Positions 25,220-28,008 of a DNA stretch of 41,879 nucleotides are shown here, one piece after another. Location of the stretch: positions 1 through 41,879 of the forward strand of contig VGSG01000029.1 of the NCBI GenBank assembly GCA_016875095.1, in the 5' to 3' direction. The notes below the pieces were generated by a model. That model worked only from the letters and a program-made list of their open reading frames with translations, searched no databases and had not been told where the DNA came from. The DNA is from Deltaproteobacteria bacterium (lineage in GTDB: Bacteria; Desulfobacterota; Desulfomonilia; Desulfomonilales; Desulfomonilaceae). Position 1 is the stretch's first letter; each line of letters opens with the position of its first letter. The position numbers and the translations under genes were made by a program.

Positions 25220-25708
25220 TTACGAGGTGGGTTTTCTCTCGCAGACGGTCGTGCAGTACAGCGCCTCTTCCGGGTCTTCGGCCGAACATGCCGCACACTC
25301 GCAGCTTTCCGGATGATCCTCAGGCGGTTGGTACACTTCGCCTCGTTGTCGAGCCCGGTAGTCTTCAATGGCGCGTTGGAGCGCGTCAGAGCCCAGGTTA
25401 GAGCAATGATGTTTCTTCTTGGGAAGTCCGCCGAGAGCCTCGATCACGGACTTGGCGCTGATCGTCATCGCTTCGTCCAGCGTTTTACCGACAGCCATTT
25501 CACTCACGATGCTCGAAACGGCTATCGCGGCGCCGCATCCGAAGGTCTTGAACTTCACGTCTTCAAGCCGGCCGTCCCTCACCTTGATGTAGAACGTCAT
25601 GATGTCTCCGCATGCGGGGTTGCCGACTTCCCCTATCCCATCCGCGTCTGCTATCTCCCCCACATTGCGCGGGTTCTTGAAGTGCTCCATAACGATTTCG
25701 CTGTACAT
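25220..25708 (-). CDS. iscU: IscU/NifU-type Fe-S scaffold with Cys-rich tail
   Basis: A 162-residue protein from ATG 25708 (AGGA 8 nt upstream). The scaffold core has the three cluster cysteines in GNPACGD, FGCGAAIAVSS and HHCSNLGS, so the metal site is intact. The usual IscU stops at about 130 residues. Here a tail HPESCECAACSAEDPEEALY, then CTTVCERK, adds five cysteines, with a CxCxxC arrangement. Tails of this kind could hold another metal or stabilise a cluster. Its position downstream of a desulfurase-like protein lacking the PLP lysine (26016-27218) suggests the pair works in cluster assembly. They are 307 nt apart. Confidence 0.93.
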   Translation of the reverse strand: MYSEIVMEHFKNPRNVGEIADADGIGEVGNPACGDIMTFYIKVRDGRLEDVKFKTFGCGAAIAVSSIVSEMAVGKTLDEAMTISAKSVIEALGGLPKKKHHCSNLGSDALQRAIEDYRARQRGEVYQPPEDHPESCECAACSAEDPEEALYCTTVCERKPTS

Positions 25709-26015: not shown

Positions 26016-27218
26016 TTAGCTTACCGCGCGAGTCTTCCCCGTCTTCTTGTACAGAGGCGACATGTCTCGCAGTCTTTGCACGATCGGCGGCAGAATCCTC
26101 AGGAAATCGTCTATGTCCCGGTCGGTATTGTCCCGCCCCAGCGTGATAAGAAGCGACCCCTGAGCGGTGGCCGCGTCGATCCCCATACAGAGCATCACGT
26201 GCGAGACCTTGAGGGATCGAGATATGCATGCGGAACCACTGGCTATCTTTACTCCTTCCATATCCAGGAACAAGAGCATGGATTCGCCTTCCACATACTT
26301 CACCGTCAGGCTCACGTTATTGGGAAGTCGCCGCGTGGGGTGCCCCACGATCTCCACTTCTTCCACGGCCTTTGGTAGTTCAGCGATAAGCCGATCTCTG
26401 AGCCTCCGGGCGTGCGCCATGCGGGACGGCAGCTCACGCAACGCAATCCCAGCCGCGATCCCCATCCCAACAATCCCCGGAACATTCTCCGTGCCGGCTC
26501 GGAGTCCGTTCTCCTGGATGCCGCCATCGAGCAGAGGCGCGATACGCACTCCCTTGCGAATGTATAGCGCGCCCGCCCCTTTGGGCCCGTAAAACGAATC
26601 CGCGGCCAGGGACAGGAGATCCACATGGAGCGCTTGAACGTCTACGGGAATTACGCCGGCGGTTGCCACGGCGTCACTATGGAAGGGGACCTTGTGAGCG
26701 CGAGCGATCTTCCCGATTTCCTCGATCGGCTCGATAGTCCCGATCTCGTTGTTCCCGTGCATCACCGAGATGAGAACCGTTCGCTGGGTAACGGCCCTTT
26801 CCACATCCGCGGGATCTACTATGCCGTGACGATCCGTGGGGAGGCGAGTCACCTCCACTCCCTGGGTTTCCAGGGCCTTCACCGCATGCATGATGGAGAA
26901 GTGTTCCACCCCGGACGTGATCACATGATTACCGCGCGCGCGATTCGCGTGCGCCACGCCTTTGAGCGCGAAATTATTCGATTCCGTTCCGCACGAGGTG
27001 AAGACAATTTCCGTTGGGCTCGCGCCAATGAGAGCCGCGACCTTTTCCCTCGCCTCATTGAGCGCCTCTTCGGCCTCCTCGCCCAGGCTGTGAATGCTGG
27101 AGGGGTTGCCGTACTTTTCGGCAAGATAGAGGGTCATTGCATCCACAACTTCCGGCAGGACCGGTGACGCGGCCACATGGTCCAGATTGATTGTCCTCAC
27201 GACGGTTTTCCCTCTCAT
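26016..27218 (-). CDS. IscS-like protein lacking the PLP lysine
   Basis: A 400-residue fold-type I aminotransferase-like protein that aligns with cysteine desulfurase IscS along its whole length. The start [26 protein letters not shown], the [11 protein letters not shown]-stacking His and the Cys loop [11 protein letters not shown] (C331) are kept. The Schiff-base region, normally SAHKFYGPKG, reads [10 protein letters not shown], so Lys becomes S208 and His becomes D207. The pocket Gln after DAV is A185. A published Archaeoglobus IscS with the same kind of loss has no desulfurase activity and gives a Cys ligand to an IscU cluster. This protein is probably the same type. Starts at ATG 27218 or GTG 27200 (AGAGGG 9 nt ahead) are both possible. 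Confidence 0.9.
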
Positions 27219-27432: not shown

Positions 27433-28008
27433 GTGAAATCCGAACAGTGGGGAATCTCTCGTGAGCGAGCGCTGGAGTTGATAGAGCAGTATCTCGAGGC
27501 CGAAAGCATCCGCAAGCATTGCTTGGCATCGGAAGCGATCATGAGGGCGCTTGCCCCACGATTCGGGGAAGATCCGGAACTATGGGGCCTGGTGGGATTA
27601 CTCCACGATCTCGACTACAACGAAACCCGTGATCGCATGGACCAGCACACGATCATAACCGGAGAAATTCTCCGTGCCCACGGAGCGCGTGAGCCGGTCA
27701 TCGAAGCGATACAATCCCACAATGCCGAGAACTTGGGAATCACCCGAAACAAACCGGTACACTTGGCGCTCACTGCAGCGGAGACCATCACAGGGCTCAT
27801 CGTGGCCACCGCGCTGGTTTACCCTGATAAGAAGCTGGCAAGCGTTAAACCAAAATCCGTTCGAAAGCGCATGAAAGAGAAGGAATTCGCCCGGTCCGTC
27901 AACAGGGATCACATTCGTCTCTGCGAGCAACTGGGCATGTCCCTAGACGAATTCATTGAGGTGAGTCTTGACGCGATGAGGGGTATAAGCGACCGCCTCG
28001 GATTGTAA
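27433..28008 (+). CDS. HD-domain (HDIG-type) phosphohydrolase-like protein
   Basis: A 191-residue protein from GTG 27433 with AGGAG 6 nt upstream. The HD pair is in GLLHDLDYNET, with further histidines in DQHTIITGE and IQSHNAEN, the pattern of small metal-dependent phosphohydrolases often acting on nucleotides. It is divergent from iscS with about 210 nt between them. Function is not narrowed further. Confidence 0.85.
   Translation: MKSEQWGISRERALELIEQYLEAESIRKHCLASEAIMRALAPRFGEDPELWGLVGLLHDLDYNETRDRMDQHTIITGEILRAHGAREPVIEAIQSHNAENLGITRNKPVHLALTAAETITGLIVATALVYPDKKLASVKPKSVRKRMKEKEFARSVNRDHIRLCEQLGMSLDEFIEVSLDAMRGISDRLGL

Follow-up and report, generated by a model that had tools for sequence, protein, structure and literature searches.

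The window (the whole stretch of DNA analysed, 41,879 nucleotides) encodes an IscS homologue that lacks the lysine which binds pyridoxal phosphate (PLP), and which is best explained, with a probability that we put at roughly two in three, as a former cysteine desulfurase that has been retained as working partner to its own IscU. The IscS fold, the IscU partner and the loop cysteine Cys331 have been kept under strong selection. Judged from its residues, the protein very probably lacks PLP desulfurase activity, and it is likely to work with IscU in Fe-S assembly through Cys331; that sulfide or carriers, and not a paralogue with the lysine (Lys+), provide the sulfur is about an even bet. The features concerned are collected in Table 1.

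Table 1. Features of the window that bear on the Lys-less IscS and its surroundings.
Feature	Position	Strand	Basis
Lys-less IscS homologue, 400 aa, ATG start	26016..27218	-	ORF and translation
Ser208, codon TCG, replaces PLP Lys (E. coli K206)	26595..26597	-	Alignment, codon
Asp207, codon GAT, replaces His (E. coli H205)	26598..26600	-	Alignment, codon
Ala185, codon GCA, replaces Gln (E. coli Q183)	26664..26666	-	Alignment, codon
Leu357, codon CTT, replaces conserved Arg (E. coli R354)	26148..26150	-	Alignment, codon
Cys331, codon TGC, loop cysteine kept (E. coli C328)	26226..26228	-	Alignment, codon
IscU/NifU_N scaffold, 162 aa, downstream of iscS	25220..25708	-	NifU_N PF01592, TIGR03419
Putative zinc-ribbon-like, Cys-rich C-terminal tail of IscU, CECAAC-n10-CTTVC	25241..25303	-	Sequence pattern
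HD-domain gene, transcribed away from iscS; a neighbour, doubtful as a member of the system	27433..28008	+	PF01966

Translation of the iscS gene gives the motifs LSLA-A206-D207-S208-FYGPKG, FHSDAV-A185-TA and SGSA-C331. The first-pass annotation, which had read Ser208, Asp207 and Ala185 at the Lys, His and Gln sites with Cys331 kept, was borne out by translation, alignment and codons; it had given no strand for the reading frame, which is the minus strand, and it overlooked the replacement of the Arg by Leu357. The alignment with IscS/NifS and the Archaeoglobus fulgidus protein (AfIscS) that it had proposed was run, and set Leu357 against E. coli R354 and Cys331 against C328; the Lys, His, Gln and Arg sites are all replaced, and Cys331, His106 and Asp182 are kept. 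Six active-site residues of E. coli IscS have been studied by mutation (H104, D180, Q183, K206, C328 and R354; PMC9978102), and the window protein has counterparts of H104, D180 and C328 (H106, D182, C331) but none of Q183, K206 and R354. It would take no sulfur from L-cysteine, because Lys208 is gone, and with it the internal aldimine, and Gln, His and Arg are gone too; the loss of these residues of PLP chemistry supports the earlier expectation that the protein should fail as a PLP cysteine desulfurase. In E. coli IscS, K206A and Q183E each leave zero desulfurase activity (PMC9978102).

The protein matches Aminotran_5 (PF00266) over the full Pfam profile and scores 304.8 bits against NCBIfam NF002806, 'IscS subfamily cysteine desulfurase', a margin of 0.8 over the cut-off of 304; in the same kind of profile search it falls below the cut-offs of TIGR03402 and TIGR02006. 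In its AF2 model (pLDDT 82.8, pTM 0.85) the fold is that of IscS and the Cys loop (328-336) is flexible, and Foldseek matched this model in the PDB to Nfs1 with ISCU2 and to AfIscS (TM 0.87-0.91). By full-length sequence and fold similarity, the window protein is of the IscS fold (class V aminotransferase, IscS branch).

That Ser208 reflects a sequencing error or a decaying pseudogene has a practically negligible probability, and we rejected it on the orthologues without Lys, on selection and on codon distance. A misreading of AAG as TCG had been considered for a codon near 26600; the codon lies at 26595-26597, and the orthologues contradict such an error. Eleven genomes of the same GTDB family yielded orthologues (L007-L017, 68-77% identical to the window IscS), and every one of these lacks the Lys and has P, Q or A at the site. 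The Ser itself is odd, being seen in one genome only, which speaks for an error, but several base changes are required (from TCG, two to reach the Lys codon AAG or three to reach AAA), three other active-site residues are altered too, and the frame is intact. Across the family iscS genes, pN (0.06-0.22) is far below pS (>0.7), and since synonymous sites are saturated at such pN values, the window iscS is under strong purifying selection; together with the orthologues this means neither error nor pseudogene. Within the subfamily this site is most often Gln, and the Ser of the window protein is one of the states reached by drift. The window genome also holds a second Lys-less IscS (C1:88091; L163:8092-9306, G000:C1), a 67% paralogue with Ala at the Lys site and no iscU near it, whose orthologue is L017 in genome G015.

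Relatives were sought in one genome per species, and the figures are a lower bound. Among the matches listed, Lys-less IscS occurs in more than ten bacterial phyla, mostly with Gln at the Lys site (motif A[AG]NQFYGPKG); the groups include Chloroflexota, several deltaproteobacterial groups, Omnitrophota, Planctomycetota, Acidobacteriota, Aminicenantota, Margulisiibacteriota, Nitrospirota, Actinomycetota, Bacillota and Elusimicrobiota, and archaea carry it as well. The earlier suggestion that the route is wider than one archaeon stands in that the Lys-less type is far broader, although Methanosarcina acetivorans IscS1, reported to lack the Lys (PMC7585200), had already extended it past A. fulgidus. 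When 58 Lys-less sequences were compared with 37 Lys+ sequences, Lys at the K206 site and Arg at 357 (E. coli R354) were each present in none of the former and all of the latter, His at 207 in 3/58 vs 37/37 and Gln at 185 in 4/58 vs 37/37. Cys331 is found in every sequence of both sets (58/58 and 37/37), as are Asp182 and His106; in the Lys-less sequences T78/T243 are mostly kept and the pocket Ser is mostly Ala. No substitute Lys appears among the sites fixed in the 58 Lys-less but not in the 37 Lys+ sequences.

A careful tree that left out the active-site columns unites the bacterial Lys-less proteins (support 100/100) and places the archaeal ones, including AfIscS, in a separate group (100/97) joined to Lys+ archaeal IscS (99/94). 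A single change of the Lys was seen in no bootstrap tree of this analysis, and the bacterial and A. fulgidus groups may represent separate losses; yet a single Lys-less clade has an AU p of 0.405 on the careful tree (0.852 on a quick tree, which favoured it), so that one loss and two are both possible. A sub-branch of nine loci (L022, L025, L058, L063, L065, L067, L068, L086, L095) has the loop SGSAC changed to (T/V)(R/K)SAC, and has iscU upstream, not downstream, of the Lys-less iscS. Rubrerythrin-like and flavodiiron-like genes were seen by inspection to recur near Lys-less iscSU (L048, L060, L082, L113, L043, L046), which suggests an oxygen-defence context.

The first-pass annotation had also placed the gene next to iscU, and a same-strand iscU does adjoin it downstream. 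This IscU keeps all its ligand residues (three Cys, Asp and His: C33, D35, C58, H101, C102), and shows all three signatures of the partners of Lys-less IscS, namely the AVSS loop, CSNLG and the Cys-rich tail. AV in the loop after Cys58 was found in 42/49 IscU beside Lys-less IscS vs 0/61 beside Lys+ IscS, CSNLG or CSKLG likewise in 42/49 vs 0/61, and the two-knuckle Cys-rich tail in 25/49 vs 0/61; these signatures are mostly clade-level and stand for few independent events. Chloroflexota encode the zinc ribbon apart from IscU, in an ORF of 61 aa that follows iscU (PF12773). The HD-domain gene beside the Lys-less iscS is kept in five loci of the family (L007, L008, L011, L012, L015).

Genes for sulfur carriers are a further feature of the relatives. 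Within 3 kb, tusA (Pfam-confirmed) accompanies 22/63 Lys-less vs 2/103 Lys+ IscS genes, and dsrE2 14/63 vs 0/103; the Fisher test for tusA gives p 5e-9 with kinship ignored and only two independent Lys contrasts. The tusA link is nevertheless recurrent, because it changed at least 10 times within the Lys-less group. In L040, L043 and L046 the gene order is iscS, iscU, zinc ribbon, dsrE2 (PF13686) and tusA (PF01206), and L075 has this L040-type order (iscS, iscU, dsrE2, tusA) without a separate zinc ribbon. Among archaea, tusA lies beside Lys-less iscS in L077 and L153, and a DsrE-type gene does so in L191; in L252 the order is a tusA-like gene, iscS, a Rrf2/IscR-like gene (recognized by sequence inspection) and iscU. 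In the window and its family, neither tusA nor dsrE2 was found in the 3 kb on either side of the Lys-less iscS. In E. coli, IscS hands sulfur on to TusA (PMC2854127), and DsrE/TusA homologues of Metallosphaera carry thiosulfate (PMC4175335); beside Lys-less IscS, sulfur may flow from TusA to IscS.

Lys-less IscS with IscU is already known from A. fulgidus and M. acetivorans. The A. fulgidus pair (PDB 4EB5, 4EB7, 4HVK) resembles that of the window in its replaced Lys, Gln, His and Arg, its kept loop Cys and its IscU partner, and the likeness to the Archaeoglobus protein that had been proposed holds, since the replacements are of the same kind (in 4EB5 the Lys site is Asp199, the Gln site Ala and the Arg site Leu; PDB 4R5F is a D199K variant). 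With Lys, Gln and Arg replaced, Cys kept and iscU adjacent, the window protein is of the A. fulgidus type in residues and neighbour. The two proteins are 46% identical over the fold alignment and differ in having Asp (A. fulgidus) or Ser (window) at the Lys site; the careful tree sets the archaeal group apart, though a single clade is not rejected (AU p 0.405), and the zinc-ribbon-like tail is present on the window IscU, with none noted for A. fulgidus IscU. A. fulgidus IscS is reported to be inactive and to supply a Cys ligand to the cluster on IscU (PMC7585200, PMC5176006). M. acetivorans IscS1, likened here by its published description, is archaeal, and is likewise reported to lack the essential Lys and to be linked to IscU1 (PMC7585200).

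The NifS/IscS desulfurases (E. coli IscS, human NFS1; TIGR03402, NF002806) share with the window protein the fold, a dimer-type sequence, the loop Cys and an IscU partner, but, unlike it, have the PLP Lys together with Gln, His and Arg at the other conserved sites. Like the window pair, the minimal IscS-IscU system (MIS) consists of two genes with no adjoining chaperones or carriers; it is described with a cysteine desulfurase, whereas the window IscS is predicted to be without activity (PMC12192291). The SMS system (SmsCB) also assembles clusters without a cysteine desulfurase and is fed by sulfide, as proposed for the window system, but uses a SufBC-type scaffold in place of IscU and has no IscS homologue (PMC12192291). 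The open-access papers searched, a set that does not include the one defining MIS, gave no mention of the breadth of bacterial Lys-less IscS, the loss of Arg, the signatures of IscU or the link to tusA/dsrE2.

As a working partner, the window IscS would dock IscU and present Cys331, on its mobile loop, to the cluster being built. Cys331 would there act as a ligand, in the way seen in the A. fulgidus crystal, or else relay persulfide; the sulfur would arrive as inorganic sulfide or as protein-bound persulfide of the TusA/DsrE2 type seen in relatives. Free sulfide is the simpler guess for the window organism, because dsrA is present and no carrier gene is linked. A related possibility, held at a substantial but minority probability, is that Cys331 only completes the coordination of the cluster, in the manner proposed for A. 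fulgidus, with free sulfide and no sulfur passing through IscS. The replacements are the same as in AfIscS, whose loop Cys binds the cluster in 4EB5 (PMC5176006); the window organism has a full-length dsrA and is likely a sulfide producer, and its family has no linked carrier within 3 kb. Such a ligand role leaves the recurrent tusA/dsrE2 linkage in relatives unexplained, and is only one option, because these linked genes suggest sulfur-carrier input; its sequence expectation is the same as that of the relay form of the working-partner reading.

It is unlikely that the sulfur still comes from cysteine, with the Lys-less protein receiving persulfide from, or forming a heterodimer with, a Lys+ paralogue. 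Most carrier genomes do hold Lys+ class I copies, some adjoining the Lys-less gene (L094/L147, L075/L146), and these copies, often without their own IscU, could supply sulfur. On the other hand, neither class of Lys+ desulfurase was found in G062, a Dehalococcoidia genome consisting of one contig, in which masked stretches limit such absences and whose other strong class V protein is, by inspection, of the alanine-glyoxylate aminotransferase type; and both Lys+ class I copies of G003 are tied to other tasks, through a molybdopterin oxidoreductase fusion and a PaaK-like neighbour. G063 was rejected as a genome with only a Lys-less copy, its second copy being partly masked (L207). In an Omnitrophota locus (L094:6001-8339), Lys-less and Lys+ iscS stand in tandem, 48 bp apart and followed by iscU, and offer a natural test case for a heterodimer. 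It is very unlikely that the protein has stayed a PLP enzyme, with PLP bound non-covalently or by a different residue, and has a weak desulfurase activity or some other one. In favour of this, D182 and H106 are present, as are T78/T243 for the most part, and a few PLP-fold proteins are known to function without the Lys. E. coli IscS K206A retains some PLP but is inactive (PMC9978102); moreover, the loss takes in Gln, His, the pocket Ser (mostly Ala) and Arg at once, and the Lys-less group has fixed no Lys elsewhere to replace the missing one. A return of Lys by S208K alone is a weak test, because the Arg is lost as well.

The window pair need not be the main system of its organism, because the genome has a canonical NifS with full-length NifU (on C11) and other Lys+ desulfurases, including a SufS-like gene and a Lys+ NifS-like gene adjoining a PaaK-like ligase gene (L003/L212, G000:C108); its only TusA sits in a selenium-type cluster, and the SufB/D core was not found, an absence limited by masked stretches and incomplete assembly. 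In eight genomes (G003, G052, G060, G062, G063, G067, G071, G075) the sole NifU_N stands beside the Lys-less IscS, and in two more (G073, G081) it is 1.3 kb away or follows a tandem pair, within the limits of masking and incomplete assemblies. G003 and G052 are 96% and 94% complete, and no SufB/D was found in either, subject to the same limits. The PaaK-adjacent Lys+ gene occurs also in G003 (L211, G003:C48), two family genomes in total, and likely serves a task other than Fe-S assembly. Also in G003 (L210:2030-5443, G003:C36), molybdopterin oxidoreductase and Lys+ NifS-type desulfurase (SAHKIHGPKG) are fused in one frame of 1137 aa, and frames of about 1140 aa surround a NifS match in G005, G011, G016, G022-G024, G029 and G031. 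Full-length dsrA is present in 18/18 sampled family genomes and also in several relatives without the Lys-less gene; its pattern follows phylogeny, and a link of Lys-less IscS to sulfate reduction is weak.

Lys-less IscS has hitherto passed for a peculiarity of archaea. The bacterial subfamily described here is large and under selection, has an IscU signature of its own and repeatedly stands near sulfur-carrier genes; for genes of this type the automatic annotation 'cysteine desulfurase' is probably wrong. Tentatively, and at somewhat less than even odds, it may represent a widespread cysteine-independent route of Fe-S assembly in anaerobic bacteria and some archaea, composed of a desulfurase-dead IscS, a co-specialised IscU and a fused or separate zinc ribbon, and fed by TusA/DsrE2 or sulfide; if the TusA-fed form of this reading is true, the known sulfur flow from IscS to TusA would be reversed. 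Since the subfamily has its own IscU, recurrent carrier neighbours and, in some genomes, the sole NifU-type scaffold beside it, any non-cysteine source of cluster sulfur in anaerobes becomes testable with defined proteins.
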